Assembly: GCA_944989445.1 (NCBI GenBank)
Contig: CALYLW010000500.1
Coordinates: 248,001-312,000 of the forward strand
Length of the DNA stretch: 64,000 bases
DNA from: Ampullaceana balthica
Lineage: Eukaryota > Mollusca > Gastropoda > Lymnaeidae
Reading direction: 5' to 3'
Made by a program: the position numbers and the translations under genes. Shown in pieces: positions 34,601-62,907 of this stretch. Position 1 is the first letter of the stretch; each line of letters begins with the position of its first letter. The notes beneath the pieces are model-generated. The model saw only the letters and a program-made list of their open reading frames with translations. It did not search any database and was not told the origin of the DNA.

Positions 34601-37600
34601 TAACATTTGTTTGGATTATGTAACACTTGTTTGGATTATGTAACACTTGTTTGGATTATGTAACAATTGTTTGGATTATGTAACACTTGTTTGGATTATG
34701 CAACACTTGTTTGGATTATGTAACACTTGTTTGGATTATGTAACACTTGTTTGGATTTCTTTTATATAACGAGAAAAAGAAAGCTACCATACTAAGAGAA
34801 TAATTTTTTTTTAAAAATTTGAAAGCATTTAATGCAGTTTTAGCTAAACAAAACAAAATTATTGTCCAATAATTTATTTTATTTCCAATATTGTCTACTC
34901 AGACAGTAGCAATATCCCATTCTCTGGCTTGCACTTAGTTGTTAAACAAATGTTCTCTATCCTATGGAAGTATCAGAAAAAAAGACTTACGATAAAGACA
35001 CTCAGCCCTCATAAGTGCTCGGCCTATGCTTCTGAGGCTACAGGGGGAAAAAAGCTGCAGAGGAAATGAACTTTTAAATCTGTTAAATTCATGCAGTATA
35101 CAGGGTACATTTTAAAGGCAATTTGTGCTGGAAAAACTTGCCAGCTGGATACAAATTAATTTTTAAATATGAAATTAATAGTGAAAGGGCTTTAAAGCAA
35201 ATTTAGATAAGCAAGTTTGCAGGGATGAAATAGAAATCTAGGAACAGGTAATGGAACACATTGTTTGCTAGTAACAAGTAATGGAACACATTGTTTGCTA
35301 GTAACAAGTAATGGAACACATTGTTTGCTAGTAACAAGTAATGGAACACATTGTTTGCTAGTAACAAGTAATGGAACACATTGTTTGCTAGTAACAGGTA
35401 ATGGAACACATTGTTTGCTAGTAACAGGTAATGGAACACATTGTTTGCTAGTAACAGGTAATGGAACACATTGTTTGCTAGTAACAAGTAATGGAACACA
35501 TTGTTTGCTAGTAACAGGTAATGGAACACATTGTTTGCAGATCTGTGTGTACATTTGATAGGGGATGCTGGTACAATCAATATCTATTACAAATTTAAAG
35601 AAAATCATTACATTAAAACTTTATCTAAATTGCTATAAGTTTATCACCCGACCTGATAATGAATGCAACATACAAAACCAGAACTTGATTAATTTTTTTT
35701 TATAAAATCTCATTTATTTCATTTGGTTTTCCCACTCTTGAAATTGTAACATTATAATTTTGAGGCTAATGGTGAAGAGGAATACCAGAAGACATAGTGT
35801 GTTGGATGAAGGAGAGGGAGAAGAAAGAGCTGGAAAGAGCTTAGCATATTGGAGAGAATGTAAAGAGCGCAAGGCTTGGCTGTGTAAAAAGTGGAGGGCT
35901 TGGCTGTGTAAAGAGTGGAGGGCTTGGCTGTGTGAAGAGTGGAGGGCTTGGCTGTGTAAAGAGTGGAGGGCTTGGCTGTGGAACAAAGAACTTAAAGTAA
36001 AAATGATGAGGATGAATTGTTGGGAGTGTCACAAGTTACCCTGTTGTTGTGTAGGGTCCCCACAGTGGCACGTTCCCACATAATGAAGTTTCCTCCTTGG
36101 TTGTCTGGATAAGAACATTCTTTAGTAACTGGATCATGATCACTTCCAAAATTATGGCCTGGAAGTGAAAGAAAATAACTACATGGGTTGCACAACATTA
36201 TAATAAGTAAGTGATCTTTTAAATAAGAAGTATTGTCTCTAAAGTTAACAGCATTTTCAACCTTTTGAGCAAACAATTTAAACAAAAGAGAATATTTTTT
36301 TTACCACAATATTTTAAACAATTTGTTTTCAAATTAAAAACATATTGATAACAATAATATCACAATCTTCACAATGAAAAATTATACACAGTTTAAAGAT
36401 ACTTAGGATCAAATGCGTAAAAAAAAACATTGAAATTTATGTTTTTTCAACTAAATAAAAAGGAAATTTCTATTTATACAACCTTCTGTCTTTAGTCCTA
36501 CCTATTTCTGGAGTAGAAAAAAAAAGATGAGAGACAGTTTTTATAAAATAAAATCAATAACTGAATCCATTATCAGGGTGTCCACCCAAATGTGGTCCAA
36601 AAAAATCCTACCAGGCACCAAAAAATCCTACCATCCAACAGACAAGTAAAAGTTATTATTCGGACAAGTAAAAGTATATATTCGACAAGTAAAAATTTAA
36701 CTTTCGGTATTGTCTGAGCTTCGAGCACTGGAGTGGCTAGAAACTAGGTGCATTATCCACCTAACCTCTGCTTTTAGAGTATCTGCAACTTTAAGAGTTG
36801 GCTGTTTAGTTGTAGTTGAAGTTGGATTAGATGTAGTTGAAGTGGCAGTCTGATTCAGAGATGATGGAGGTGTTGATTTTGTTGCAAAACTAAGCATTGA
36901 CCTGCTACCACGATGACTTGCACTGGCCCGCATGTGCTTTTGTGAAGACATATGGGTGTTCAAGGCTTTTATGCCTGACGATCTTATAAGGTAAGCTTGA
37001 CCACAGTACTTGCACTTGAACTCTTCACGATTTTCACTTAGTTGTTCAAGCCACTCAGAGTAAGAAGTGTCTTTTAACCAGTCTGAATTAAAATAACATT
37101 TCCCCATGTTGATGGGATTGATAGTGTTTTTTGTAATAGTATACAAATTGTCAATATCTGGATAGTGAAGTAAGGAACAAAATTAAACTGACAAAAAGTA
37201 AACTAGTCTTAAGACTTTAGTCAAGAATTTGCCTACTGCAGCCTACCCTAAAAAATGTTAGTTAACACACTTTAAATTGTAACCATTTAACCAGACTGGA
37301 ATCTAGATTTCTAGATGTTTAGCACATAATTTTCAACACTGAACAGGACTGATTTTTAATCTATTTAATCATAAAAAATAAGCTTTGATTTGAAACAGAA
37401 TCTAGATCTAAACCTATTTAAATAGTTGCTTTAATAGTTGTGACTTTGGCATACCGTGACTGTTTAAATATTTTAAAAGAAATTAACTGAACTAGATCTA
37501 GATTTTAGACGTGGCTAGGCTAAGCCTAAGGTTTTTTTCGTTTTTAATTTTCACAAAATACTAGATTAGAGAGATCTATTGACTTCAAGCAGACAAAATG

Positions 37601-40600
37601 ACGACTGCTGCTAAAGCAGCTAAACAATAAGCACAAAAATCGTAGTTAACACTGCTCCCATAAATTTTTTGGAGATATAACAAAATTAAATTAATAACTG
37701 GAATGAATCTTCATACTTTTCTTGACGTTTTATGACCATTTTTAAGAAAATATGTTTATTTATAAAGATACAGGGCCTTGTCAAAGTTTTGAATCGAATG
37801 GTCATTTTTTTTCTTTCTTCCCCTTACTTAGAATCTAGACTAGCTATTTTGCTGTCAAACATAGATCTATATCTGCCTTAACTTAAAAGTATCCCCCATT
37901 AAAAACTTTTACAATACTTGAATAGTTGGGGATAGATATCTATTATTTACTCAGATCATGATATATTTTTAACCAAAATCCTAATATGAATATCTAGATC
38001 TAGTATATCACACTAATTACTATTACGCGGTTACTAGATCTATACTATGGCTAAGCGTAAGTAATTTCACAATTTCTATCTGTTTCAATCACAGTGCACT
38101 TAATGTTTACAATGCCATCTTTAACGAGAATTATTTTGTTTAATATCTGTAATTTGTTTGTATAAGTTTAGTTTTCGACTTTTGTTTTAAAACACACATT
38201 TTAAAAAAAAATAAAACTATAGATATATTCGATATGATATCGATATGGACAGGGGACTCGTCATAGGTGAACAACAGTTTTTATACTGCTGCGAACTATT
38301 GGTATTTCCAAACCAAAACAATGTGGAACGTGAGCTTCGTCATTCATTTATTTATATCTTTTATCCGACCGAGGAACGCTTATCCTACCGCGATTTTGTT
38401 TATCCGACTGAGGATCGTTTATCCGACCAAAATCCGACCACAAAATTTTTATCCGACTAAAATCCGACTTTCCGACTTCGGTGGACACCCTGATTATTAA
38501 GTGAAAAACTATTGCTGTCTGGACATATATACATAGTAAAAAAGTTAACTTGTACTTTATATTTGGATGAACCACTGATGTTTAGTGTTCAGTTTCAAAA
38601 ATGCATAACTAATTTGACAACAACAATCTGATGTTATGTTAGAAAACCTATGTTGAATAGAACCCCTGGGCTAGTATGTATTTTTAGTGTTTGAATTATT
38701 TGATGTGTAGGCAATCCATCAAAAATGACAAGTTGATAAATAACGGGATATTTTTTTTAGTGGAATGGAAATATGGAATATCATAAACTAGGTTTATCTG
38801 ATATGTTAAAATATATGGACTACGATAAAAGTGCAAGTACCATGTGTAAAAACTAGATTTATCTCATATGTTAAAATATGTGGACTATGATAAAAGTGCA
38901 AGTACCATGTGTAAAAACTAGGTTTATCTGATATGTTGAAATTGGTCCAGTCTTAGCATCTTCACAGGATGTTAAGCCAGCACTGAAAATTTTGGTTCCT
39001 TGTTTGACTTCTGAAAATAATGAGAGTATTGAATAATACATATTGTCTATGTATAATTTTTTTAGATGATATATTAACAAATTACGATTTTTAAAAATGA
39101 AGAAGAGAACAAAATACTGTACGATTTTTTAAAAGTACAAAGAGTATAAAAACACTGGATTTTCTCAAGTAATTGTTTAGATAACTGTATGAAAATAAAT
39201 TTTACAGGATTAAAAAAAACAATAGATGTATTTAAAAAATAAACATGACATGGTTTTTCACAGTCATAATTTGTCAAGCTTGTCAGGGGTATGAGAATCA
39301 CTGTGAGTGAATGCTTGTTGACTGTGTGAACACTAGTCACGGGAATAATGTTTTAGTGAACTCCTGGTTACATGGGTATGTGACCAGAGGACACGCCAGG
39401 GTCAGTTTAGACCAGTTGGCAGAGAGTTGTGCAGTCAGACCAGTCGGGGCAGACCGGGGAGTTGCAGGGAGACAAGAGTTGTAGCGTGTCGCCCAAGAGT
39501 CGGTCGGGTTTTGGACCGAGGGGACTTGCTTTGTATATATGGAGCTGTGAAGTTGATACTCGGGCATGGGCCCAGCAGCGGTCGCGTGAGACCACTCAGC
39601 ATGGGCCCAGGAGCGGTCGCGTCGGACCGAGGGCCATGCTTGTGAAGTAACTATAGCGTCGAGTTGGTGTACAGCCAGTTGATTATAAAGATATATTTTC
39701 TGTCCTGGCAGGACAGCTAATTGTGTACAGTGTAATAAACAGTTGAGGTATATATCATTGTGTCCTTTACTAGTGTCTTGTATGCAAGCGGAGAGCATGG
39801 CAACAAATCCTATAACATCGAGACCTGACAATGCTAATTGTAATCATAGTTTTTCAGGCTAATTGTAATCATAGTTTGTCATGCTAATTGTAATCATAGT
39901 TTGTCATGCTAATTATAATCATAGTTTGTCATGCTAATTGTAATCATAGTTTGTCATGCTATTTACTATTTGTAATCATAGTTTTTCATGCTAATTGTAT
40001 TCATAGTTTTTCATGCTAATTGTAATCATAGTTTGTCATGCTAATTGTAATCATAGTTTTTCATGCTAATTGTAATCATAGTTTGTCATGCTAATTGTAA
40101 TCATAATTTTTCATGCTAATTGTAATCATAGTTTGTTTTTATCTTATCTTATCAATACAGACGCTCCTTCTATGCAGAAAATAATTGCGTCCACAGACCA
40201 TGAGAGATGATCTGTTGGCAAGTGATGCAGCTTTCACAGGCCACGGCTTTGTGGGTTCCACGCATTACCCAGCCGCCTAACTAGTGTTAGGTACCCATTC
40301 GGAGCTGTCTACCTCCTCAGTTCTATTTTGTGGTAAGCCAATTATTACTGAAAGTTTTGTCCATGTAATATTTTTTGTTGTAGCTTTGTCTCTTCATGTC
40401 CTGTCTTTTCATGTCCTGTCTCTTTATGTCCCATCTCTTCATGTCCTGTCTTTTCATGTTAAGTTTTATCAAGTCACATTTTATCATGGAACTTAAAATA
40501 ATTTTGTTAGTGACATTAAATAACAAGGATACCATTACATAAGTAGAATTTCTGTTTTATAAAATCCAATACATTACACAAGTAGTATGATTAAAGAATT

Positions 40601-43600
40601 AAATTAAATGACTGCACATAATTTCTTAAGTAACAATACAATTTTATTTGCACATATCCTTCTTTATTTAGGAAGACACTTGGGACACTAGTTTGACAAT
40701 ATGAACATGTCTTTACATGTGCAACTCTCAAAAAGTAGATGATCTAGTAAAATGAAATTATGTAAACTGCAGGGACTAGTTTTAATTTGAAATTTTTTCT
40801 TCCAATTTCTGAAAATATATTCCTGTATAGAGAGATTTATTTATCACTGGAGGAAATACTTAAAATAACTTCAACATAAAATCTGACACATTTCCTTAAC
40901 CCAAACTAAACATAACATAACATGTCTAATTTATTAGTCATAGATTCCTACAATGCACAAAAATAAATAAATAATATTAAACTTACTTGCGCAAAGTCCT
41001 TCCTTTTCTGCCAAGCCCAATATACGATATGGCATTGGGTAGGTGGTAACTAAATGACTCAAACAATATTTCTTTTCTCGAAAACTCATAAAATATTCAA
41101 AAGACTGAAAAATAGAGGTTTGAATAAAACAAAGATAAATAATTTTAAGCAAAATCAATATAAAAAAAAATAGATAGATTTATTAAAAACACCCAATGAA
41201 TTCAAAACACTAAACAATGAAACCCATATTGGAGTGAGCCGACACTATTATGTGAAAAAACTGTTCATTTGTAGAGTTATGATAATAACATGTTTCATTG
41301 AGTACTAATACATGTAGTTGTAAATTAAATTTAAAAATTAACAGCATCCTCATAAAATTTCTTTTGATATATATTTTTATAACTTTTGAAAATCTATTAC
41401 ACTAAAATTAAATAGGCCATTTTTTACCAATTAAATCAAAATTAATTTTATACTATATTTTTTAAACATAATTTTCAAAAAAGAGGTAGAGAGTTCATTT
41501 TATTTTTTAAAACATTAATGAGCAACAGACTTCTGTCTATCAGCAATAAACATGCAAACTGATGTACCACTTAACTGTATGAAAAAAATCTGGTCTTAAA
41601 CTCCACATGTCCATTTTTTGTCCATATTAATATTACATTATCTTTGAAAAAAAAGATTTCATAATATATTCTCTTTACACAGTAGGCTAAACAAATGTGA
41701 TGATAGTTGTAACCACTTATATTACTGTACTTACATCCAACTTACTAAAAGAATCCCATTCAACATCCTTTGCATTGAAATGTTTAAATGTTGTATCTGA
41801 TGAATAGGTGGGTGTTGTGTATAAGACCAGCTGAAATGATCAGCAACTAAAATAAATTAAACAGCAGAATGACAGAAGGGAGGCAACCAACAACAAGGGA
41901 AACAACTAGAAGCAAGGAAAAACAAAAAACTTTAAATTGCAAGAAATCTCCTACATGTTGACAACAAACCCTCAACTTATCTGGAGCACAGTACATGTGT
42001 ATCTTTCTAAATCATTAGAGGAAAAGAAAGACTACCAAAATAATGCAACTTTGGGACTTGTAGGGAATATCAAATATTGTTTGCAATCCTCAAATAAAAA
42101 GTTATCAGCCTAAATCTGCCACAAAACAAGGCCATTTCAAAAAAGTTTTAGCTGAGATTAGTAATAACAACCGTCATTATTTTGAACAAGATATTGGGTC
42201 CAAATCAGTCTAGCTATATACTAATACTGCATTTTTGTTTCTTTAATCACAAAGGTATTTATACAATAATTATACACACATACATCCTCAAACACAGTGT
42301 ACCTTGACGATCTGAATTCCAACATCGTTATGAATATGGAAGCGTGAATCCTGAAAACGGGAGTTTCTGAATATAGTGTCTGCATTCTGAACAAGACTTA
42401 TCTGCAGATAAAAAATATTTGCAAATGTTTTTAAAAATTTAAAAAAAAACAATAATAAAATTTCATTTGTATCTTTTTCAATCTCAAATGCTACTGAAAC
42501 ATTGCACATTTTTCTGCAGGAGTGGCACATCTTTAACGGCTAGGACAGCTTTACTTAAATTGCAAAAATATTGCTTTATACACAGCTTCTTTAATTGATC
42601 CATATTTTTTTAAATGTAATTTTGTGACTAAAACAAGTGGCCAGCAACCCTTTTTACTGGCTGAATCTCTATTATGAATAAAATTTGTATGGAAAAAAAT
42701 TAGGTTTACAATTTAGGGTTTACACAATAATGTTTAAAATTCATGTTTTATATTTCTAGGGAGGAGCAGCTATTCAAGATAAGAAATGAAGGCTTAAAAT
42801 GGTAGCAGCTTCAAGGCTAGTTGACTATAAATTTTTCAAGTGACCATAAAACAATAGTTACCAATAATGCTGAACAAACCAAATGATTCTTTTTACATCT
42901 TTTAGAGAACAGGTCAAAGTCGCCAACCAGATAAAGCACACAGGTATTTTCTTTTTCATCTCTTTTCTCTCGACTTTTATAACCTGCTTTTTGTTTTAAA
43001 AAAGAATAAAAATTTTACTAATAAAATGGGAAAAAAATACTTAAAATGAAAATAGTAATAGAAAAATATGGGGTAAAATGAAACACAAGCATGATAAATT
43101 TTGAGAGGATTCTTTTTATTATCTCATGTTCAAAACTATTATTGCCTTACATTTGGTATACCATTCCAACATTTATATTGTCAAACTTGTTTATATTTTA
43201 GTACCATTAACCTTAATTATAACAAACTGACACTAACTTGTTTATATTTTAGTACCATTAACCCTAATTATAACAAACTGACACTAACGTTGCCATCTCC
43301 TTATCTACAAAGATTTGCAACATTAAATAAGACCTTAATTATAATTAAAGGTGTGCAAATTGCTCAAAATACAGTTTTTATTGCAGATGGAAAAAAATCA
43401 TTTCACTCATTTAGTGCTCCCAGGAAAAACTTTGTCATCTCTATAAACTATCATTCTTTATTTTTTACTGTTTTTTTTTAAAAATTAGTAAATAAATGTT
43501 TTATAATTTTATATTTAGAGCCAGGCAAATAATCTGTACATACTGTTATTAGATGTGTTGTATTCAGAATACGGTAAACTACTCTCTAATTGGTCTATTC

Positions 43601-46600
43601 TTTTTCTGTATCTTGCACCACTGAAAAAAGGATAGGTTTGTTGTCTTTATTTTATCTCAAGTTTTGTTAAACATAGTTAGTCAAAAAGAATTTGTAAGGA
43701 AAGAATTTTCAAGGAAGACAAAATGACATTTGAAGGAATATAAGCTCATAATTTTGTTGTATATTTTTTAATTATTAATTATAACACTAAACTTTAATTA
43801 TTTATAACAATTAGTTATTCATTATTGCAAATTAATTTTACCGTTTAATTTGAGAATTTCTTTGCTCAGTCACACTAAAAAATAGGTATTTAAGTGTGCA
43901 ATAATGCCACTGCTTAATAGTATTAATGACAAACAATGCAAATGTTACTGTAAGTTTTTCACTAGTGTTGATATATTTCGGGTGGTCTAGTAACCTAACA
44001 ATTGTACAAATTTATTAGTTTATTACAAAGTCGTAAATGGCACAGCCTGCAAGAGCAGCACCCATTGGGGTTTCATCCAAAAATTTAAAGAGGGTAACAT
44101 GGGCAGCACAGTCTGAAAAGCCGTAGCAGGGGATACCCAAAACACTTTTTTAATATAAAAAAAATGTAGCAGAGAGTTACTGATAATATCAAATTCTTTA
44201 TGTGTTCATGATCATCAAAAACCACATTGTTTTAATACAAGCTATAATCAACCATATCACATTGCTTCATCAATGCTTAATAGATAATGAACTGTGATCA
44301 ACTGTACCACATTCCTCCATCATCTTTTATGTCTGAGCTCCTGTAAGCAATCATTGAATCATTCTGTGGGTTCTCTGAAGACTTTAATAAATTTGATGCA
44401 GGCTGTTAAAAAAAGTTTTATAAGATGGAAATGCATTATATAAATTCTAAGACATTAATCATTTCTTGTAAACATTTGTAATTTACTTTTCTTTATACTA
44501 TCATCTTTATTTAACACACAGTTATGAAAAAGTATTATTTTTGGAAATTCTTGATATTGTTCAATAATTTTATCAAGTTTAATGTAGTCCGATAAGATTT
44601 TTTAAAAAAGTTCAATCTTCAATTATAGATAAATGGATCAACATCAAACGAGATCATGAATATTTAAAAAAAAATGTTAAAAGTCAGTGCCACTTGTAGA
44701 AAATTGAAATTGGATTATTCAGCCCGAAATGACTATGATAGAAATTGTTTTCCTTTTTTTAAAATCTCACTGTGAACTTGTTTTTTTGGGCTGCATTTAT
44801 TCCATACAGTAAATAGATAAAATAACTAGAGGAGGAGCAATCAGGAGCATAGATAGAGAAATATATTAAAAACAAAAAAATCTTGAATTTTTATCATTAT
44901 CGTTAATTTCCACAGCCCTAATTTAAATGAATTATGACTTATACTATTAAGTTAATTAATTACCTCAATGGTAAAAGTGTTGTTCACATCATATATCAAT
45001 ATTGACCATAATGTGTCTTCCATATGAGCATTTACAGTCACATTGGGATTATCTTTAAAAGAAAATACACATCTTTACTTTTCAAAGTAATGAAAAATAT
45101 TAAGTCTTATATCATTAAGTATATAAAAAAAAACATCTTAATTAATCAACACCATAAATTGAGCAAGCTCAATGACTTTTAATAGATTTATAACACACTT
45201 AAACTTATTGTTCAAAAGAAATCTTATTGTAATTTTAAAAGCTAGACCTGTTAGGTGTCCACTGAAGAATATATTTTGATCAACAGAAAACTGGGTCATT
45301 CTGTCATCTTCTTCAACTAAATGGGCAGTAAATTTCTTTGCTAAGACTTGAGTACCAGCTTTAAGTGTTAAGTGAAAGTTTCTAGAAAAAAATCAAAGAG
45401 CAACATTTAAAAAAAATATTTTTAGTAAGAAGGGAGTATCAGAGAAAAACTCAAACTTTGATCATTGATGTCCGCAGCAGTCTCTTTCTTGGACATAGCA
45501 TTTCTTTTTAGGGGGTGGCCGTATATTCAGCATGCCGGATATCTGGATTTCCAGCCCTATCCAGATTTGCCAAATACTTATGGCAGATCCGGGTCGGATC
45601 CGGACTTTTTAAGGTTGTTAATGGTTAACCAGTCTTGAGATTGGGGCCGGTCCTGTTTCATCAGGACCGGTTAACCTTAATCTCAATTAGTTGGTACAAG
45701 CTTATTAGCTGGAGTTCAATTTTTGTTGTGTTACGGCAGCATACGACAGAAAACACACAAGCGACATTAAAGCGCCTTCTGATTATTCTAGTATATAAAT
45801 AGTATACACGTCATCACTATTAGAGGAGTTCAGCTGATAAAGGATTTTGTTAAAATTCGCTTAGTTGCCGAGGCTTAGTGCATTGTAAAATGTTCATCGT
45901 TGACATTGACAGTGTCACAGGCTGTCATTGTAGATAGAAGATACTCTCCATATGTTGGATAATAAATACTTTAATAAATTGTATTAAATACTAAATAGAA
46001 AGTAGCAAAGTACAGCCCCTTAGCTCTTACACATCTGGAGAGATCCGGATCTGGGAAATATTTGGGGCCTACTATCCGGATCTGGAAAATAGTAAAAAAA
46101 CATATCTGGCCACCCCTATTTATTTTTTAACAATTTATATTTCATTTTGGCAGAAAGCCTTACATTTCAATTATACTCCCGTAGGAGAATTTACACAAAA
46201 TAATCTTTGAATAATCTTCTGTATAGAAGGAGCGTCTATAAACAGAAAAGATTTTAAAAAATATTTGTAAACAAAAATCAAAGAGCAACAATTGATTTTT
46301 AAAAATTAAAAAATATTTCTTTTAAATGTCTACAATTACAAATTGAAAATTTAAAAAAATAACAAAAGAAGGAAGATAGCAGCTAAATAAGAATGGGAAT
46401 TTAAAATTAAAATGTATTAATCATGGGTGATAATTAAGTAAATTACATGAGCATGAGCATAAACCAATTCATGAAATGTTTAGAATAGTTTTAGAAGCTG
46501 GAATGTGTAATGTTTTTGTTACCTATTAAATGTTTTGAAATTCAATTCTTTAATCAGTTCCTGACCTTCCTTTGATCGCTTCAGTCGTGATGTTACACCG

Positions 46601-52300: not shown

Positions 52301-55300
52301 TTACGAAAATGGAAAACTAATAAAGAGAAAGTTGTCAACTGTATCAAAGAAAAAGAAACAAATAAATTGCAAACAGTTTCATAGATAGAAAACAACTAAT
52401 CCAAGCTAAAGATGCCAAGCACTTAGAAGTATTAATACAGGAAAAATTGTCATGGAATCAGCATATAAATTAAATAATTAAAAAATCCAACCAAACTTTA
52501 GGTTTTATTACAAATGTAATAACAACATAAAACTACATTGCATTGGTCAGACCTATACTAGAGTATAGTGTATCAGATAAGATGAGAGAGAAATAATTTT
52601 TTTTATAAATTTCATTTTGCAACTTTAAGAATCATCAATCAAAATTTAATTATAATAGATGATGCAATATTCTTGCTCTAAAAGTTAAATGCAAACTATG
52701 CGACATCTTTTTTATGTTTTAACCAGAAAATTTTTACCATGAGAATATAACTACCTGGATGGCTGATTTTATCATCTGTTTTAAATATTTAAAAATTTAA
52801 ATTAACAGAGAGGAAAATGAAAATTTATACAAATTTTAGGTTGCTGTGATGCAGCTAAGATTTCATTTGCATGTCTGGCAAAGATATTATACTTATTAAA
52901 ATGCCTCTCCATATTTATAGGCTTTTCACTATAACTTTAAAGTCTGGGACAGATGTGTTAGCAAGTGGATTTCGTGCCCAACTTGTGCAAAAAGATGGAA
53001 GGATGACACATTTCTTTGTTGATCAAAGTAAAATCTTTACGGGACATATGACAGGTAACTAACTAGTTGTTCAAATATATCATCATGTATCTTCCAATAT
53101 TGATCACATTTCTGTCAACTTCTGGTTACATATTTTAAAAAACCCAATCACATCTCTTACTTAAATTTTTTGGAAAAGTATTATATTAAGAACTTCAAAA
53201 TATGATTGTTTAAAAAAAACAAAACAATCTTTACAAATTAGTTGGGATGTTACCAAACTTTTCTTATCTTTTTCTTTAGCTCACTTTTATTTTTTAAATT
53301 AGGCAAGTTTAAAAAAAATAATAAAACATATTGTTTTTCTAAAAAAAATTATATTGCTGGCTTCTCAAATTTAGTGATTTTTTCTTCTTAGACCAAACAG
53401 ATATACACGTGAATGCACACTTGGAAGACAGCTTATGGTCTATACGTATTTATGAAAGAAATGAGACCTTTGCTATTGAGGTGGGTTTAAAATATGACAC
53501 TGAAAAGACACTGAGTTATTTAAGTTTTCAAAGGTGATCTATTGACCCTTATTGATGTCATCCTGTAGTTTTTGATTTTTAAAAAATGTTTAATATTGTT
53601 GCTCATAGAATTAAGTTAGTATACTTTAGAATTTGTTACACACTGGACTAAAGGTATTTAAATACTTGAACTTGAGTGAAATAATTATCTTAATATTAAT
53701 ATTTCATCTCTGTTAATCTAAAAAGTTGTGCATTGTGCAAACATTTGTGTGCTTTTATTTTTTATCACTAGTTATTTCAAAGTTGTTGTAATTTACTGTT
53801 TTATCAAGTGACCTTTTTCTTTCTGGAGCTGTTAAAATGTGTGACTAAAAAATCAACTTCTTTTGTTTTAAATCTCTGATCTCAGCCAGCTTGGACACTT
53901 TTAAAACCATCAGAGAACCCAAGAAATGACACTCTCATTGCATACAGAAGTTCTGACTTTTCAAATGACACTGGGAATTGGTAACATTTTATAAACTTAC
54001 CTCCTGTACTGATATATATTATATCTGTGTCCCCCCCAAAAAGTATCTTTTTGTTGAGGGTGAGAAAGTAAGAGAAATATTTTATTTTATTATAAAAAAA
54101 TTCATTCAATGACATAGCTCTGTAAAATAAAATGAGAATGCATGGCAAACAAGAAATAATCTAGACATTCTAAATAAGATTCTTTCACTCTAACATTATC
54201 TGAAAAATACTTGGGAATGAATTAAATTAGAACATAAGTTTTAAATTTATTTTCATGGGCCACTAATGGATCGTTTGAAAGGACCAGTGATATCTTTGAG
54301 CTCCATTTATGTTTCAATTTTATTATGTATTAAAAAAAAAGCTCTTCAAAGCAGCTATAGGCATTTCTTTCAATGGCAAAGGGTTCTGTCTATTCAAAAG
54401 TCAAAGAGCCATGAGTTAGATACCTTAAATATTAATTTATAACTAAAATAATGTTGTTGTTTTTCTTAAAAGATAATAATTGAAAATATCTTTTTGGCAA
54501 GAGTGGAGGGATGGAAAGCATGTATAATAAATATTGTTTTCACAATTTAAGAAAATAAAATTATATAAAATTTCACTCATTAAAAAAAAGACAGCTAACT
54601 CACTGTGCCACATCCTTGGTTTTTGTATATGAAAAACACATGTGCGTAGAGTACATGCTGAAATTAATTTAAATTGCATAATGTTATCCTAATTCTTGTA
54701 AAATATTTTAGAAAGATTATAATTTATGTTGTTGCTTTTTAAGGACCTTTAATTTGAGTCAAACATTTGTTGTTTCAGTGGCTCTGACAACTTTGTGAGC
54801 CCAATGTATTTTGACAAAATTAAGCTTTCCTCATTTGAAGGTAATGGAAATGATATGTATTTTTGAAGCAAAAAAGTTTTAAAACTTTTAGCGTCTGTAA
54901 TCCTCTTTGGTATAACAGATTATACTAAGATGCCCCAAAAAAGGGACATATTTAATTCTGAAGAACAAAAAATATTGTTGATTCATTTCTGAAAGCTTGA
55001 GAAAACATAGCTTGATTGGTTTATATTAATCGTTAAGGTATATTTACTTTTGATAACTTTAATTATATAGCAAGTTTTTACATCTGAGAAGCTATAAGTT
55101 TTCAATGGTGATAAATGCTTTAGTGTTGCATTATTGATCTTCCATGATGACTTGCTCTGCTCAGCTTTGCAGAGATTGAAGCAATGCATTGATCTGATGG
55201 CAATTAAAAAGTATTACTTGGTGTCTTTTGAAATTTAAGAAATTCTTTATATGGAATTAGTCTTGATAAAATAAAATATCTTTAAAATTTAAATTTTAAC

Positions 55301-58300
55301 AAATGTACAAAGCCACCTAATGTATATGGTAAAGATTTCATTATTTTTCATATTGTCTCCCCTATTAAATGACATCACATTGTTTTAGTCAATAATTGAC
55401 CCATCTAGCCTAAATCATCACTAATTCGGTACACATTTGAGATACTCTTATAATTCTACGAAATTTTCATTATCTAATGACTAAGACAAATTTCTAGGTC
55501 TTCCAGTGAATAATTTAAATTAATTTCTTAATCCATCACTGTAATATTTCATTCTTTTCAACTAAAAAACCTATTTTTGGGGCTTTGACAAAACCCTGAA
55601 AGACGGTTATGTGTACGGATATGCGCATACATAATTATCTCCTGTGAACAAAAAAAAACAACGGTCAAATCCCTCCCATTGATCCCAGGCAATTGACTTC
55701 TCTCTATACATATAATAGTTAAGATCATGTTTTAATATCTGCTTCAATAACAGTAGCTTCTCCTTAACGTTATTGCCAATCACATTACATGGTTGCAGAG
55801 CTCATCACATTATGGGTCTAGGTGCTCCATGCCTACTCTTAAATGTTAAGTTAGCATAAGCTGCCCCAAACGTGTATATTTAATTTTTCCTCATGGTAGC
55901 AAGCTATTATTTTTATTTTCTGGAGCTTTCATTGTGTGTAAGGTGTCTATATTTTATGTGGTCTAACTTGATAAAAGCTATTTGTGAAAACTTTGTGATA
56001 GGACTTTAAGTCAAATATTTCTTATCCCATGTCAATGAAGTTATTAAAAAATCAAACAAAACCTTAGGCTTTATAAAAAAAAACTTTAACAAATGTAATA
56101 GAGATATAAAACTAAAATGCTACCTCACTTTGGTGAGACCTGTACTAGAATATGCATCTTCTGTATGGGACCCATCCACCAAAGAAAACATTGATAAACT
56201 AGAACAAATTCAAAAAAGAGATGCCAGATTCATTATTGGAGAATATTCAAAACTGACAAGAATAACACCATTAGTTAAATCATTAAACCTTGAAACACTA
56301 GAGGATAGAAGAACCAAGAGCAAAGTAGTAATCATACATAAAGCAATTAATTCTAATTTAGAAATACAACACAACGATAACTTAATACGACCCTCAGATA
56401 GACATAAGGATAAAAACACCTTTCTTATTCCGTATGCAAGAACAAACACATACAAGTTTTCCTTCTTCCCGTCCGGAATTCGGGCGTGGAATGGGTTGCC
56501 TGAAGAATCCAGGAAAACCAACACTTTATCAACATTTAAATCTCTAATAAAAATGCAGGACTAAACACAAACCATAGATAAGCGTAGGACGCAATAATCT
56601 TCTGTATAGAAGGAGCGTCTGTAAACAGATAATATCTGTTTGTTGGTAAGATTTTTTTAGCAATAGGACGATAGTTGGAATACTCAGTAGGAAATATTTA
56701 TTTGGTCATAGGACTGTAGTTCAAATTCTTAATTATTTTCTGTAAGATTTGTTTTTCTCTTCAGTTTCAAAGGACACATCTGTTATTGATTTCAGTATAA
56801 CTCTCCAGTTTTGTTTCAATTAGCCTTTAAGATGTTTCTTGTCTAGTATTCCAAACCTTCCAGCCATCTACATCTGCTGTCTCTCTTCTAAGAGGGAATA
56901 GCTCAATATTAGTGTGCATTTCACAAGCTATTTCTTTCAGTCTGGCAATAATTATAGAGATACAAATTTGATTTGAAAATAAAGTTTTCCTTCTCCTCAA
57001 CAAAGCTTGTATAGTAAATAATATTTTTCTTATTTCTTTCATTCCATTTTGTAGGTCATCATGGCCGCACCAAGAGAGAAAACACCAAGAACACTTGTGT
57101 TATTTATCTGGTTGCTGACTTCTCATTTTTCACAAACAGATGCAAACGCCATCATTTAACATGCTCTGCTCTAATGGCACGTTAACTGTGTTAAATCTGT
57201 GTTAACTGTGTTAAATCTGTGTTAACTGTGTTAAATCTGTGTTAACTGTGTTAAATCTGTGTTAACTGTGTTAAATCTGTGTTAACTGTGTTAAATCTGT
57301 GTTAACTGTGTTAAATCTGTGTTAACTGTGTTAAATCTGTGTTAACTGTGTTAAATCTGTGTTAACTGTGTTAAATCTGTGTTAACTGTGTTAAATCTGT
57401 GTTAACTGTGTTAAATCTGTGTTAACTGTGTTAGATCTGTGTTAACTGTGTTAAATCTGTGGCTTTTTACACCAAATACTGCAAGTCTGTTTAGTGATAA
57501 TTTATAAAAAAAAGGCTAATTGCATTTTTAAAATAATTCGAGTTAAAAGTTTATATGGAGGCTTTATTGTGTTTATTAATTCATACTCTTGCATTATCTG
57601 AAAACGTTATTCTGTTGCCATTGAGGTAACATACCAATCCATACTTAACTCCCTAAGCTCTAATATATAAGGTAAACTTCAATGTTTTTTCCTTAGATAA
57701 GTTTGATACATCATGTAGATGCCATATTCAGGAAGTCAGAATTTATAGACAGTCATTTTGTCATTCACAAAGGAATTGGGATTCAAATAGGAAAGGTAGG
57801 CTACTCTGGTTGGTTTGTTTACATCAGTGGTCACAAATGTATGTGTAAAAAAATATTTTTTTAAGATAACATATTGTTATGGATATATCTTTCTAATGGT
57901 TTTTGTTTATTTGTAAGATCATTCAATTATACTTGAAAAATGGTGATGGAAAGAATTCTCTTTAATGTTTATGAAAATTGTTCAGTACACCAACCAGAAG
58001 CTAGATGCTACAACAATGCTCCTGGCCGGGGTGGGGGGTGTAAATACATACCTATTACTGATTATTAATGCCCTACAATGTGTCCTCTTGGTATACTAAA
58101 TTGTTGGCCTCTTTGCTGAATACCAGGATTAGTTAAACTTAAAACACATTGAACTACAAAAATTTACAATCTGAAGATGTATGTACCAGGGCTGTTAGCA
58201 ATTAATTTAAATTTAATCGATAAATTTTGAAAAATTAACGATTAATTAATCGTTAAATTCGATTAAAGCCAAAAATTAAAATTTATGACGTCATAAGTAA

Positions 58301-61300
58301 CACTTATTAAACGTTCTTGTTGAAAATCTGAATAACACTGGAATGTCTCCTTTATATGTCTAATTGACAATATAACTAGCCGAGCTGAACAATCATTCAC
58401 ATGGAACTGAGGTAACTGGTATGCACAAAACAGTTTTGGCAAGAAAGGACCATATCATACATCGGTGTTCATTAAGTTTCCACCTTTGTAGAGGGTTAAT
58501 GGATTCAGGAACTTTCATCTCCATTTTGTAACCCAGTAATTCATCAGAAGAGCTGTCGTCATTTTTTGTCTCTGAGTTAGACTCCATTTCTGCCATTAGC
58601 TTAATACGCTTTTCATTTGGTTTGATAAGTAGGCGAAGTGTTAGAACCATGGTAGGCAAACTTTATCAACATTTTGAACATTCCCGTCAGTCAATAGTTA
58701 AAAACCAAAATGTTCCTGTAATCGTCAGGAAATGTATTATTTATCGGCCCCTATTTTTTTGAATTCCAATAATTTGTGAGTGATGGGTCGATTAATGGCT
58801 AAAAATAATTTAATCGTTAAAATTTTGTAACGATTAATCGAGAAATTAATAATTAATTTCCGCAGCCCTAGTATGTACTAAGCTTTTGTTGTTTTTGTAG
58901 TGTAGCTGTGATCAGCATTATGTATAGAGTGGATTTATTTAACACCACCTAATGAAAAATATTCACTGTGCCACATTTAAACTATCTGCCATCGTTGGTG
59001 TGATGATTTCTTAACAATGTGACTTGTGTACATTGCAGCTTGTTCTTTACACCACACACACCTACTCAGCCGACACACTCTACCCACACTTTAATGCCAA
59101 GGGCATTGATTGGACAGCTTATACAAAACTGTTTGTAAGTCGACTTTTTCTGTTGATTATCATCGCTGAAGTACAAGTAAAAAACCCAAACAGCAAAGTA
59201 CCCCAGAGGCCCCCGCATTTGCCCAAACTAGTTCTCTCCACCTGCTTATAGCCTGTAGCACCCACAATTTCTGCCAGCCAGTTTTAACTTTAAAATAAAG
59301 AACATCAATTCACTTAATTAAAAAAAAAGACAAAAAATAATCAGTTGCTTAATGTACTTAAAATAATCAGCTTCAAACTATTTTGTGTATTTATTGTTTT
59401 CAAAGCAATAAGAAAATATTTTAAATTTTATTTTCCACTAGATTTTTAGGCAGTGTTTAAATTTTAAAACACTTTTTTAAACTGACTATAAAACATCAAC
59501 CAGGCTTTTCTTAAAATCAAGTTCTCATGTCACTCATAAGTACTTTGTAATTGAATACAATCACACATGTTGAATACAGGCAGACACTTTCGGTACAAGA
59601 TAAGGCTTTCAATATTTTGATGATGACGATTTCTGCTCAGAAATATATTGTTCAGAGATCAATACTTATTTTGATATTTTACAGTCTTTTTCCTACTTCA
59701 TGAGTTATTTGAGGGAGGAGTATTGTCTATGTCACTTGCTGACCAGCCACGGAATGAGCAATCGAATTTTGGGTTTGGCCTATGGGAATTCCATCTGTAG
59801 CAGTAAGTCTTTGGCAACCTAATAATTCCATCTGTAGCAGTAAGTCCTTGGCAACCTAATAATTCCATCTGTAGCAGTATGTCCTTGGCAACCTAATAAT
59901 TTCATCTGTAGCAGTAAATCTTTGGCAACCTAATAATTCCATCTGTAGCAGTAAGTCCTTGGCAACCTAATAATTCCATCTGTAGCAGTAAGTCTTTGGC
60001 AACCTAATAATTCCATCTGTAGCAGTAAGTCCTTGGCAACCTAATAATTCCATCTGTAGCAGTAAAGTCCTTGGCAACCTAATAATTTTATTTTTATTTT
60101 TTACTTTGAATTAAATTTCTCCAATACAAAGGTAATTTTAAGCTATTATTAAGTCTACTTTGATTAGTTACCATTTATATTACCAAAATAATGTTATTAT
60201 TTTCTTTCTATTAACAGTTAATTATTTTTGTCTATCATGATCAGTTAATTATTATTTTATTTCCTTTGATTATTTGCTAACATTCTGTAGTTCCAAGGAG
60301 AGGCAACACCCTTGAAAGTTCTGGACTTTCCTCAGATATGGATGAAATTTTTGGACCTCTGTCTAGTGTACAGCTGAATCTTGTTATGGCTCATGGTATG
60401 TATTTGTTATTGAGACATATAATATGTACTATGTGTTAATGAGCCATATGTTGTGTGGTGCTATTGAGACGTATTGTTTATATTTGTTATAGAAATATAC
60501 AGTCGGACCACGCTAACTCAAACTTCCCTAAGTCGAAAACCTCCCTATATGGAATTAATTGATGGTCCTGGCCTAATTCCATACGACTAATGTATTTTAG
60601 ATCTCCTTAACTCGAAGATTTTTGGCTTCCAACTTCCCTTAGTTGAATTTTCCAAGGCATTTGCTGCATGCTGTGACTTTATTATAAAGAAAAATCTTAC
60701 TTCCCCCATCCCGTCTGTGGAGTGAGTAAAGTGGGGGAGGAGAGGGAAGGTGTCTCCTCTCACGGGCTTGTGTCGGTATGTAAAAGCAAGTTGACTTCCT
60801 TTCCTGTCAAGCCTTCTAGCCGGTATGGCTGTCCCCCAACCCTCAATATCAACATTGTCCTTGATTAATCTGCGCCTATTACGCCATTTTTCCAAACTCA
60901 AAAATTCCTTAAGTCGATTTTTTTTTCGGGTCCCTTTGAGTTCGACTTTGAGAAGGCTGACTGTATTTTGTACTTGGTATGTGAAAATGCAGTATGTTCT
61001 TGTTATATGAGTATGAAGTATATACTTTTTATGCTAACAAAGGGTATGTATTTATTTTGGGAACATAAGGTTGATATTCAGAAATAGCTTATTTAATTTT
61101 TACGGGAATAGAGCGCGAATTTGTTGAAAATTTTTTCCCCCATAATATTGTTATTGATACCTTTAATTTTTTATTGCAAGAGATTATCAATTACATCAAT
61201 TACATCAATTACATCAATTACATCAATTACATCAATTACAACAGTTTTTAATATTCCAAGTTACTATTCCTCCCAATAATTTAAACAAAAAAGCAAAACA

Positions 61301-62907
61301 ACAACTATAATATAATAATGTCAAACAATAGCACTCGGATATATTATATAGCGTTTTCTCCTTTTAATATTATAAAACTAAAAATAAACATATTTTGTTT
61401 ACTTCTCATTCAGAAATAGGTAAGTAGAAATTTCTTTGATGGTTCTGTAAGAGAAAAAAATAATGTAAAGTTGAGTTTTATGTTGTTTCTATGTATTTAG
61501 TGATTTTCATAAGATTGATTCTGTTCAAGTTGAGTATTTTGTTATTAAAAGAAACTGGAGTAAAGTACAGGTACTAAACTTAAATATTAAAAAAATTAGT
61601 ATAAAGGCAAAGTGGATATATCTGGATATATGATTCTTATCATGGCTACCAGTCATTTGTTTTGTGTCTGCCAGATGAGAGCTGGAATTAAAGTATTTTA
61701 TCATAACCACTATTCATTTTCTGAACCCATCAAAATATTACATTGTGGACATTGCTTTACTATTTGCTTATATGAAAGGCCTTCATTGCTAGATTTCAGA
61801 CATATTAATTAAGGGAATGCTACTGATGATCAGATAGTTTAGTTGACATAAATATTTTGTGTTTTCATTAAAATTATTTTCAGGCCATAATTTTGGTTCT
61901 GGTCACGACCCCCACAACAAGTTGTGCTCCAAATGTGAGAATGAAGGCGGGAATTACATCATGTGGGAGAGAGCTGTCAGCGGACATGCCCGTAACAATT
62001 TGGTACGTCCCTGAGTCACCCAGCTCTCAATGGGTACCTAACACTAGTTAGGCGGCTGGATAATGCGTGGAACCCACAAAGCCGTGGCCTGTGATCGCTG
62101 CATCATTTGCCAACAGATCATCTGTCATGGTCTGTGGACGCAATTACCTTCTGCATAGAAGGAGCGTCTGTATAGATAAGATAAGATAAGAAGATAAGCA
62201 GACAGTCCTCTAAAAATTCGGTGAGTTAGACCTTGAGTGTAAGCAGTCAGTCCCCTAACAATTGGTGAGACCTTCAGTGGCAGGGGACAGGTTTTGTTAA
62301 GATTGAAACTGCTCCGCATGTGGTTTTAAACCCAACACATGTTGGCATTGTGCTACAATTGTTACTTTTCAAATTTAATTCTTATCCTTTTATCTAACTT
62401 TGAGTTCATGATTTTAAAAAAGAGTTTAAAAACTTGAGTCAAAGCTCTTAATATTTTTTTTTATATCTGAGAGGTATAGAAACCCATAAAGACCAAGTGT
62501 TTCTTGAAGAAATTTGATCTATTGATATCTGAGAGGTATAGAAACCCATAAAGACCAAGTGTTTCTTGAAGAAATTTGATCTATTGAGATCTGAGAGGCA
62601 TAGAAACCCATAAAGACCAAGTTTTTCTTGAAGAAATTTGATCTATTGAGATCTGAGAGGTATAGAAACCCATAAAGACCAAGTGTTTTTTGAAGAAATT
62701 TGATCTATTGAGATCTGAGAGGTATAGAAACCCATAAAGACCAAGTGTTTCTTGAAGAAATTTGATCTATTGAGGCTAACGCTGAATCATGACTTATTCT
62801 GGAAATAATAGATTTACAAAATTGTTTTTCATTTCTTTCTCAGGTGTTTTCGCCATGTTCCTTGAGAAATATTGGCCGCAAACTCGAGACTTCAACCTGC
62901 CTTGTCT
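49259..62907 (+). CDS. ADAM17-like: Second ADAM17-like metalloprotease gene, 14 exons in window (3' part off edge)
   Basis: Exons: 49259-49337 (proposed signal exon), 50743-50866, 52921-53054, 53392-53480, 53886-53980, 54779-54840, 57055-57176, 57697-57795, 59039-59134, 59685-59802, 60291-60395, 61414-61419 (microexon), 61884-62002, 62844-62907. Phases match throughout, giving 437 codons so far. Twelve of the 13 non-signal exons have exactly the lengths of the minus-strand paralogue. Prodomain landmarks Y-Y-E-T-L-S-D-V-G-V, F-T-G-H-M-T, V-N-A-H-L-E-D. Single furin-type R-T-K-R at 199-202. Catalytic H374-E-I-G-H378-N-F-G-S-G-H384-D-P and Met-turn Y-I-M-W-E-R-A. Disintegrin, transmembrane and tail exons must lie beyond 64000. 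Odd points: the exon ending at 57176 has a GC donor by homology, and the exon ending at 59802 seeds a donor minisatellite. The frame is open, so it is probably a working gene. Confidence 0.88.
49599..50360. mobile_element. MITE with GGGCCGTCCATAAATGATG ends, carrying a nested hAT MITE
   Basis: Left end AGGGCCGTCCATAAATGATG, right end CATCATTTATGGACGGCCCC, inverted over more than 20 bases. Internal G-tracts are present. The element is interrupted at 49755-50149 by the CAGGGCTG family MITE, so the outer one is older. Target duplication of the outer element is not clear. Superfamily unassigned. Confidence 0.8.
49755..50149. mobile_element. Nested hAT-type MITE, 395 bp, 8-bp TSD ATTGTTTT
   Basis: Left end TGGGGCTG, right end CAGCCCTA, with direct repeat ATTGTTTT at 49747-49754 and 50150-50157. 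Internal TTAATCAATT/ATCGATTAAAA palindromic motifs like its relatives at 30481 and 58187, but shorter. Confidence 0.85.
50481..50712 (+). mobile_element. tRNA-derived SINE, family 2
   Basis: tRNA-like head GGATAGCTAAGTCAATAGTA with B-box region GGGATCTAGCCCACG, body CTGGAGAGGAGATGGGCGCC, and CA-rich tail. It ends only about 30 bases upstream of the splice acceptor of exon 50743-50866. Shares the whole body with 12793-13042. Confidence 0.85.
50743..54840 (+). CDS. Prodomain exons, plus-strand ADAM17-like gene
   Basis: Exons 50743-50866, 52921-53054, 53392-53480, 53886-53980 and 54779-54840, with junctions CATCACTCAG|, CAG CG|GTAATC, ATTTATAG|, GACAG|GTAACT, TTCTTAG|, TTGAG|GTGGGT, TCTCAG|, AATTG|GTAACA, TTTCAG|, GAAG|GTAATG. 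Residues L-K-Y-Y-E-T-L, L-F-T-I-T-L-K-S-G, F-T-G-H-M-T, F-A-I-E-P-A-W and L-I-A-Y-R-S-S-D align one to one with the paralogue. Cys174-Gly is the cysteine-switch position. The last exon here is 62 nt against 38 nt in the paralogue, an in-frame difference of eight codons with unrelated sequence. Confidence 0.85.
50949..51189. mobile_element. MITE with GGGGCCRTCCATAAAGTATG ends (241 bp)
   Basis: Left GGGGCCATCCATAAAGTATG, right CATACTTTATGGACGGCCCC. Internal CCCCCCTCCC tracts and CACACTTTC motifs repeated in inverted arrangement. Related to 49599-50360. Confidence 0.82.
51300..52570 (+). pseudogene. Degenerate Jockey/CR1-like LINE
   Basis: Interrupted plus-strand reading with pieces of a reverse transcriptase: T-N-K-A-P-C-P-D-E-L near 51590, Y-F-S-K-A-F-D near 51965, G-N-S-G-V-P-Q-G near 52125, S-A-D-D near 52220, and Q-T-L-G-F-I then L-V-R-P-I-L-E-Y near 52490-52560. 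The last block matches the beginning of the LINE fragment at 56041, so both derive from one family. Many stops and shifts. Located in the intron after exon 50743-50866. Confidence 0.75.
56041..56640 (+). mobile_element. 5'-truncated Jockey/CR1-like LINE with 3' tail
   Basis: Open frame 56130-56564 encodes L-V-R-P-V-L-E-Y-A-S-S-V-W-D-P, then L-E-x-I-Q-K-R-D-A-R-F, and F-P-S-G-I-R-A-W-N-G-L-P, the C-terminal region following the reverse transcriptase in Jockey/CR1-type LINEs. A stop is followed by the family 3' tail GCGTAGGACGCAATAATCTT, CTGTATAGAAGGAGCGTCTG at 56583-56625. The intact 144-codon frame suggests a fairly recent insertion. It lies in the intron between exons 54840 and 57055 and is not part of the host protein. 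Confidence 0.87.
57055..57176 (+). CDS. Maturation-site exon with apparent GC donor
   Basis: Encodes G-H-H-G-R-T-K-R-E-N-T-K-N-T-C-V then L-V-A-D-F-S-F-F and C-S-A-L-M. The paralogue exon (42983-42862) is also 122 nt and ends TTG|GTAACT in phase 0. Here the equivalent point is ATG|GCACGT, i.e. a GC-AG intron. The nearest GT (57181) would put the next exon out of frame. Confidence 0.8.
57181..57462. repeat. 20-bp minisatellite, 14 copies, at an exon-intron junction
   Basis: Exact 20-bp unit GTTAACTGTGTTAAATCTGT, nearly perfect, beginning four bases after the inferred end of exon 57055-57176. Confidence 0.97.
57697..59802 (+). CDS. N-terminal metalloprotease exons, plus-strand ADAM17-like gene
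   Basis: Exons 57697-57795, 59039-59134 and 59685-59802 encode I-S-L-I-H-H-V-D-A-I-F-R-K, G-I-Q-I-G-K, L-V-L-Y-T-T-H-T-Y-S, Y-C-L-C-H-L-L and R-I-L-G-L-A-Y-G-N-S-I-C-S. Splice sites CCTTAG|ATA, GAAAG|GTAGGC, TTGCAG|CTT, TTT|GTAAGT, TTACAG|TCT, AGCA|GTAAGT. All lengths equal the paralogue's (99, 96, 118). The last donor is the seed of the adjoining 37-bp array. Confidence 0.88.
58187..58870. mobile_element. hAT-type MITE, 684 bp, 8-bp TSD GTATGTAC
   Basis: Left CAGGGCTG, right CAGCCCTA, 8-bp duplication GTATGTAC at 58179-58186 and 58871-58878. Subterminal TTAATTTAAATTTAATCG and GACGTCATAA motifs shared with 30481-31090. The internal minus-strand open frame 58393-58659 has no recognised domain. 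Confidence 0.9.
59786..60090 (+). repeat. 37-bp splice-donor minisatellite, 8 copies
   Basis: Unit AATTCCATCTGTAGCAGTAA plus GTCCTTGGCAACCTAAT. The first unit is the real end of exon 59685-59802 with its donor (TGTAGCA|GTAAGT). Each following unit in the intron repeats exon end and donor nearly perfectly. Confidence 0.95.
60291..62907 (+). CDS. Catalytic-core exons, plus-strand ADAM17-like gene
   Basis: Exon 60291-60395 ends L-V-M-A-H plus one G. The 6-nt exon 61414-61419 supplies E-I. Exon 61884-62002 encodes G-H-N-F-G-S-G-H-D-P and Y-I-M-W-E-R-A-V-S-G. Exon 62844-62907 encodes V-F-S-P-C-S-L-R-N-I-G-R. Splice sites TCTGTAG|, CATG|GTATGT, CATTCAG|, |GTAAGT, TTTTCAG|, TTTG|GTACGT, TTCTCAG|, TGTCT|GTAAGT. 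The next (disintegrin) exon is not in the remaining 1.1 kb. Confidence 0.88.
60500..60963. mobile_element. Tigger/pogo-like MITE (464 bp)
   Basis: Left end CAGTCGGACCACGCTAACTC, right end (reverse complement) CAGTCAGCCTTCTCAAAGTC, flanked by TA on both sides. CAGTCGGACC with AACTCGAA-type subterminal motifs is typical of pogo/Tigger elements. The minus-strand frame 60587-60901 within it shows no transposase catalytic motif. Confidence 0.8.
61189..61242. repeat. 10-bp repeat ATTACATCAA, 5-6 copies
   Basis: Short intronic tandem repeat upstream of the microexon. Confidence 0.9.
61414..61419 (+). CDS. 6-nt microexon encoding the catalytic Glu (paralogue copy)
   Basis: TACTTCTCATTCAG|AAATAG|GTAAGT. 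A pyrimidine-rich acceptor and a perfect donor consensus bracket exactly six bases. Joined to CAT G and GC CAT it gives H-E-I-G-H. Identical in sequence and phase to 36507-36502 in the minus-strand gene. Confidence 0.88.
   Translation, partial: K
62007..62197 (+). mobile_element. SINE family 1, 5'-truncated, next to a splice donor
   Basis: GTCCCTGAGTCACCCAGCTC, AATGGGTACCTAACACTAG, CATAGAAGGAGCGTCTGTAT and a (GATAA)n tail. Homology to the copy at 31366-31641 (CCCCGAGTCCACCCAGCTCC on its strand) begins about four bases after the donor of exon 61884-62002. The tRNA head is missing. Confidence 0.82.
62448..62775. repeat. About 62-bp minisatellite, 5 copies
   Basis: Units with ATCTGAGAGGTATAGAAACC, CATAAAGACCAAGTGTTTCT and GAAATTTGATCTATTGA. 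The array ends about 70 bp before the acceptor of exon 62844-62907. Confidence 0.94.

Follow-up and report, generated by a model that had tools for sequence, protein, structure and literature searches.

The 64,000-nucleotide stretch of Ampullaceana balthica contig CALYLW010000500.1 analyzed here (positions 248,001 to 312,000 of the forward strand, hereafter the window) carries two related genes arranged head to head, gene 1 on the plus strand and gene 2 on the minus strand. For each we located exons of the prodomain and of the metalloprotease, disintegrin-like, and membrane-proximal parts, with gene 1 extending beyond the end of the window. Our subject is AAATAG at 61414-61419, six nucleotides of gene 1, which encodes a membrane protease of ADAM17 (TACE)-like type. 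The segment is very probably a real coding exon, old in origin and in all likelihood constitutive.

Both genes encode a reprolysin-type M12B catalytic domain. Against Reprolysin_2 (PF13574, cut-off 27), gene 2 scored 69.5 bits, and gene 1 rose from 62.6 bits without the two residues contributed by the microexon to 76.5 bits with them. Peptides joined from the tail segments of the genes reached the ADAM17 membrane-proximal domain (PF16698, cut-off 26.2) at 27.9 bits for gene 2 and 33.7 bits for the gene 1 segment, which had one letter wrong. Among solved structures gene 2 was best matched by ADAM17 (8snm, E 3.9e-31; ADAM10, E 4.7e-20), and its CGNGIVDYGEECD disintegrin-like segment aligned to ADAM17. 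An ADAM10-like identity, our first guess by eye, was dropped because the structure match and PF16698 favor ADAM17, and on these predicted products we class gene 1 as ADAM17/TACE-like. It shares with the ADAM17 of 8snm the metalloprotease, the ADAM17-type membrane-proximal domain, and the HExxHxxGxxH motif, but both genes are divergent gastropod copies, 56% identical to each other over 202 columns of their metalloprotease segments. All 10 exons measured in both are equal in length (134, 89, 122, 99, 96, 118, 105, 6, 119, and 64 bases). The closest named protein to gene 1 is the Lymnaea stagnalis model P0009 (85% identity over 202 residues), which reads HGH where a protease of this type should read HExxH. 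The closest proteins are in keeping with a gastropod, probably lymnaeid-like, source.

Direct reading of the sequence confirmed what the original prediction of a six-base exon in gene 1 was built on, with the flanking exons and borders as claimed: TTCTCATTCAG is followed by AAATAG and then by GTAAGT. The splice signals are good: pyrimidines make up 81% of the 16 acceptor bases counted, and the donor is gtaagt. When the neighboring exons are joined directly they give MAHGHNFGSGHD, and with the six bases added they give MAHEIGHNFGSGHD, so that the translation ..LVMAHGHNFGSGHD.. becomes ..LVMAHEIGHNFGSGHD.. and H-G-H becomes H-E-I-G-H. Only with the microexon is the HExxHxxGxxH motif complete (HEIGHNFGSGHD), as that prediction had stated. 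Because the two flanking introns, of 1018 and 464 bases, are both in phase 1, inclusion is frame-neutral, again as foreseen. The 23-base context around the microexon occurs once in the 1.1-Gb genome, and an Rfam scan of the window at gathering thresholds returned no match.

In ADAM17 the glutamate of this motif is the general base and the histidines are zinc ligands. Included in gene 1 mRNA, as we infer it to be, the microexon would add Glu-Ile between the first zinc-binding histidine and the following glycine, completing the motif, restoring the general base, and setting the first two histidine ligands at the distance that an active enzyme would need. Skipping would delete the general base and shorten the gap between the first and second zinc ligands by two residues, and the product should be dead.

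A match this short could be coincidental. The microexon is the only match in the gene 1 intron to AG/A[AG]NNNG/GT (slashes mark splice borders), yet of 1000 shuffles of that intron 114 contained such a loose match and 46 one with a hydrophobic middle codon, meaning that the gene 1 match, considered alone, beats chance only mildly. For the view that AAATAG lies between AG and GT by accident and these proteins are truly HGH speaks this rate of about 5-11% in the gene 1 intron taken singly. However, all nine homologous introns that we could compare hold a microexon, a pattern far beyond chance.

Searching the genome with the post-microexon exon returned 16 places, two of them within gene 1. At nine loci, genes 1 and 2 included, this exon starts at the same splice site. 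In 9/9 the previous exon ends CAT G/gt, and the intron holds exactly one instance of AG/A[AG], a hydrophobic codon, and G/GT. The six-base exons are AAATAG, AAATAG, AAGTTG, AGCTGG, AATTAG, AATTGG, AACTAG, AGTTTG, and AACTTG, encoding, in the same order, E-I, E-I, E-V, E-L, E-L, E-L, E-L, E-F, and E-L, each followed by the first base of the glycine codon. All nine have AG and GT borders and are flanked by introns, so that at six nucleotides they lie well within the 15-nt limit of a microexon. The nine introns contained nine strict matches, one each, where 0.78 would be expected, and their antisense strands contained no match (joint P 8.5e-11), the null being 200 kb of other sequence per strand, in which the strict pattern occurred 8 times per strand. 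The product of shuffle frequencies over the nine introns was 5e-13, or 9e-9 if any middle codon is allowed; under that looser pattern the introns held 10 candidates, 9 of them hydrophobic. Candidates outside the delimited introns of loci C1394 and C1517 were dropped before counting, and a second candidate at C366a, encoding EGG, was excluded from the nine. Leaving aside gene 1, from which the search started, 8/8 loci count as independent evidence.

The six bases were kept where the surrounding intron was not. The microexon-bearing introns of genes 1 and 2 gave no blastn match to each other at E 1e-3, and AAATAG is the only pattern match in the searched stretch of the gene 2 intron. Outside the microexon the nine introns were mostly unalignable at the same threshold; one pair shares 89- and 138-base matches away from the microexon, probably a repeat, and another pair a 19-base match. 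Two of the loci have canonical Lymnaea ADAM17 proteins as their nearest match, C1394 P0114 (92% identity over the joined segment) and C1517 P0093 (95%), each with exactly two gap positions. The Lymnaea models P0093, P0114, and P0009 likewise each show exactly two gap positions against the microexon-inclusive peptides.

This conservation also bears on recursive splicing, in which the AG ending the six bases and the following GTAAGT would form a zero-length ratchet point and the protein would still read HGH. The gene 1 exon does end in AG directly before GTAAGT, but only 4/9 paralog exons have this ending (both copies of AAATAG, AATTAG, and AACTAG), the rest closing with GG or TG, and the conserved feature is the coding sense. 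We rejected both chance and recursive splicing on paralog conservation, regarding recursive splicing as extremely improbable and coincidence, against 9/9 introns, as vanishingly so.

Elsewhere in the genome, HExxH lies inside one exon at C566, C77, C105, and the ADAM10-like C1299; C29 and C1 fell outside the comparison. The C566 (534600-534776) and C77 (483057-483206) copies are ADAM17-like with fewer introns nearby, possibly because introns were lost by an RNA-mediated route or because the copies belong to an older branch poor in introns. We made no use of them as retrocopies, since ancestral absence of introns is as likely; C566 also seems to hold an intron of its own in the homologous region.

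Table 1. Exons and related features of genes 1 and 2, in positions of the window
Feature	Position	Strand	Remarks
Gene 1 prodomain exons	52921..53980	+	52921-53054, 53392-53480, 53886-53980
Gene 1 prodomain end	57055..57176	+	RTKR, presumably a furin-type site; GC donor (gcacgt)
Gene 1 metalloprotease exon	57697..57795	+	ISLIHHVDAIFRKSEF..
Gene 1 metalloprotease exon	59039..59134	+	LVLYTTHTYSADTLYPHFN..
Gene 1 metalloprotease exon	59685..59802	+	SFSYFMSYLREEYCLCHLL..
Gene 1 exon preceding microexon	60291..60395	+	ends ..QLNLVMAH G/gtatgt (CAT G); sequence read directly, translation
Gene 1 microexon AAATAG	61414..61419	+	G/AA ATA G/GC, Glu-Ile-Gly; acceptor ttctcattcag, donor gtaagt; read directly
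Gene 1 exon following microexon	61884..62002	+	starts ttttcag/GC CAT (GHNFGSGHD); later NYIMW, which we take to lie around the Met-turn; sequence read directly, translation
Gene 1 next exon	62844..62907	+	VFSPCSLRNIGRKLETSTCL
Gene 2 prodomain exons	44964..45381	-	45381-45248 and 45052-44964
Gene 2 prodomain end	42862..42983	-	REKR site
Gene 2 metalloprotease exon	42303..42401	-	ISLVQNADTIFRNSRF..
Gene 2 metalloprotease exon	41735..41830	-	LVLYTTPTYSSDTTFKHFN..
Gene 2 metalloprotease exon	40987..41104	-	SFEYFMSFREKKYCLSHL..
Gene 2 exon preceding microexon	38906..39010	-	ends ..QINLVFTH G/gtactt
Gene 2 microexon AAATAG	36502..36507	-	read 36507-36502; acceptor tctactccag, donor gtagga
Gene 2 exon following microexon	36040..36158	-	GHNFGSDHD..
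Gene 2 next exon	34991..35054	-	LFSPCSLRSIGRALMRAECLY
Open frame containing gene 2 disintegrin-like exon	33772..33963	-	CGNGIVDYGEECDAG..; frame limits, approximate for the exon

The same two residues are missing from many protein models of other species. Three protein searches yielded 196 distinct proteins, the second contributing the best 120 of 347 matches after scoring the 7999 candidates that share most words. Among the matches listed, 68 were assigned to lophotrochozoans by organism name (one of them an ADAM10, P0077), and these read HGH in 30 cases and HExxH in 32, with 6 broken or unreadable at the site. HGH was found in 0 of the 85 named proteins of other organisms, which include ADAM10-like and fungal ones, and in 0 of the 43 proteins without an organism label. 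The 30 HGH models are short by exactly two residues and come from gastropods (Biomphalaria, Physella, Bulinus, Lymnaea, Aplysia, Nucella, Batillaria, Plakobranchus, Elysia, Pomacea, and Haliotis), a cephalopod (Argonauta), bivalves (Ostrea, Pinctada, and Mercenaria), and the annelid Paralvinella. Other models, P0061 (Littorina), P0107 (Solemya), and P0017 (Bradybaena), seem to break at the microexon site, where an exon was probably dropped, an intron read through, or the start placed just before GHNFG.

Closely related pairs differ in the same way. Between the Pomacea canaliculata proteins P0143 and P0130, from contigs listed at equal size, the difference at the site is Glu-Leu and nothing more (81% identity overall across 445 columns, with 71 gap positions), as would be expected of one gene present in both an HGH and an HExxH version. 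The same two-residue gap separates Nucella P0088 from the short-contig protein P0085 (75% identical) and Ostrea P0123 from P0129 (85%). The simplest reading of this gap is an ancient microexon, presumably six bases in the DNA of these species too, that many gene models omit. The original prediction had held that gene predictors would miss the exon and annotate a dead protease, and the 30 of 68 HGH models, P0009 among them, support this. Coincidence fits poorly with a Pomacea gene known with and without the residues and with the absence of HGH from the 85 named proteins of other organisms.

Of the 43 unlabelled proteins 18 are closest to a lophotrochozoan protein, 17 of them on contigs of 2.3-3.9 kb. 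Given this size and frames that span 698-839 residues, these contigs are probably assembled transcripts; we take their source label, lgn, to denote assembled SRA contigs. All 17 read HE[L/I/F]GH and none skips the two residues, and 13 are at least 54% identical to their closest lophotrochozoan protein.

These proteins bear directly on the alternative that the exon is real and a regulated cassette, skipped in some tissues or stages so that one protein would alternate between a working protease and a dead pseudoprotease, which might serve as a decoy or dominant negative. The six bases are frame-neutral, which leaves regulated skipping possible, and many annotated proteins, including the isoform-numbered P0001 and P0112, are without the residues. 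A catalogue of Drosophila microexons points the same way: of 411 that have exons on either side, 283 were alternatively spliced (PMC8042270). Set against this, the residues are included in 17/17 short-contig proteins closest to lophotrochozoan ADAM17, and every paralog compared retains Glu and a hydrophobic residue, which argues for selection on the included protein and hence for routine inclusion.

A TGC (UGC) just upstream of the acceptor is a hallmark of neural, SRRM3/4-type microexon control. No common motif was seen across the nine loci: 3/9 exons have TGC in the 35 bases upstream, by our estimate about what chance gives for a short motif, and is absent in the other 6/9, gene 1 having none within 35 bases. 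Regulated switching is therefore unlikely as a general account. It is also doubtful in the narrower form in which, in some tissues or paralogs, a dead ADAM17 with intact disintegrin and membrane parts acts as a decoy or dominant negative and some of the 30 HGH models are real isoforms. Judged by paralogs and predicted proteins, constitutive inclusion appears the better-supported mechanism. The original prediction, which did not name the ADAM17/TACE family, thus stands as regards an active-site microexon and its misannotation; the protease/pseudoprotease switch that it added is unsupported and, on this evidence, improbable.

Several observations weigh against a constitutive exon of this breadth, or narrow what supports it. 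That the 17 short-contig proteins are transcripts is a judgment from contig size, their own genes may or may not split the motif, and 4 of them are just 42-47% identical to the closest lophotrochozoan protein. The search for transcripts of gene 1, gene 2, or other divergent paralogs found none, its sole matches being the Lymnaea genome model and a single remote protein. As 32 of the 68 models already read HExxH, some species may have no split motif, and several of the 30 HGH models are isoform-numbered, so some true skipping is possible. In the intron statistics, the middle codon is hydrophobic in 47% of control-sequence matches too, the C366a intron has its second candidate, poorer and with a weak pyrimidine tract, and a still stricter splice-site pattern is satisfied by 7 of the 9 microexons. 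In the family assignment, the joined gene 2 peptide did not reach Pfam Disintegrin. Finally, one intron farther upstream in gene 1 has GC as its donor.

That donor leads to a further alternative, in which gene 1 and other copies found only in gastropods are true pseudoproteases and the exon is an unused relic. The intron follows ..TCSALM (57176-57182, plus strand) and has GC (gcacgt) where gene 2 has gtaact, so that it may be a GC-AG intron or may have decayed slightly, and the expansion of these genes is lineage-specific. The other modelled gene 1 exons have open frames and GT/AG borders, however, the zinc ligands are retained, and the microexon has a gtaagt donor and a pyrimidine-rich acceptor, all of which make a relic very unlikely.

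Other features stand beside these. After the gene 1 GC donor lies a 20-bp tandem array (GTTAACTGTGTTAAATCTGT), and gene 1 contains an open frame at 56010-56564 (plus strand), with similar frames near three other ADAM17-like loci, that we take to resemble the closing part of a LINE-type reverse transcriptase. In gene 2, the 3' end and donor of the pre-microexon exon are duplicated 65 bases downstream in the intron (38840-38905, minus strand; ILTYEINLVFTHG), a possible decoy donor. Upstream of the microexon, the same intron holds a 161-residue open frame (CKYCGQAY..HMSSQKH; 36697-37182, minus strand), which to our eye has a BED-type zinc-finger look and is perhaps a transposon remnant.

Tiny exons encoding core motifs are already known. 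The closest parallels, as far as the relevant part of PMC8831610 describes them, are the plant 9-nt microexons of invertase, which encodes D-P-N/D-G/A of the beta-fructosidase motif, and of AP2. Both are phase 1, encode core motif residues, and are widely misannotated, as here, but they belong to plants, have nine bases, and serve a glycosidase or a transcription factor, in contrast to six bases in a lophotrochozoan zinc metalloprotease. In the sections of PMC4674806 concerned, an exon of a single nucleotide is recorded from Arabidopsis and the six-base exon of chicken cardiac troponin T is called constitutive (see also part of PMC8042270). The latter is likewise a six-base animal exon, but of a muscle protein and not an enzyme active site, and those sections do not describe cross-phylum misannotation. 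Mouse Dctn2 offers another six-base microexon missing in standard annotation (GENCODE), whose inclusion varies in neuronal differentiation (PMC7821500, in part), whereas the exon described here encodes a catalytic residue and is present in all the short-contig proteins seen. Among the papers covered by literature searches directed to the exon itself or to snail ADAM17, none was found that describes it. The available text of a study of ADAM17 expression in Achatina (PMC10418618) leaves it unmentioned and lacks the word "exon", and that of a study of the triton salivary gland (PMC5519703) leaves it unmentioned as well. What sets the present case apart is the position of such an exon in a protease active site and its apparent breadth across lophotrochozoans.

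In conclusion, an early lophotrochozoan ADAM17 gene probably had the exon already, ahead of the molluscan duplications, and the nine paralogs compared have kept it. The catalytic residue of a major membrane sheddase thus seems to have been encoded by six intron-isolated bases ever since. In public databases, snails, oysters, an argonaut, and a worm are meanwhile annotated with a dead ADAM17, which would mislead studies of shedding, immunity, or pseudoprotease evolution in these animals. The exon also offers a natural test of how the spliceosome reliably finds a six-base exon, and of whether it is ever skipped on purpose.

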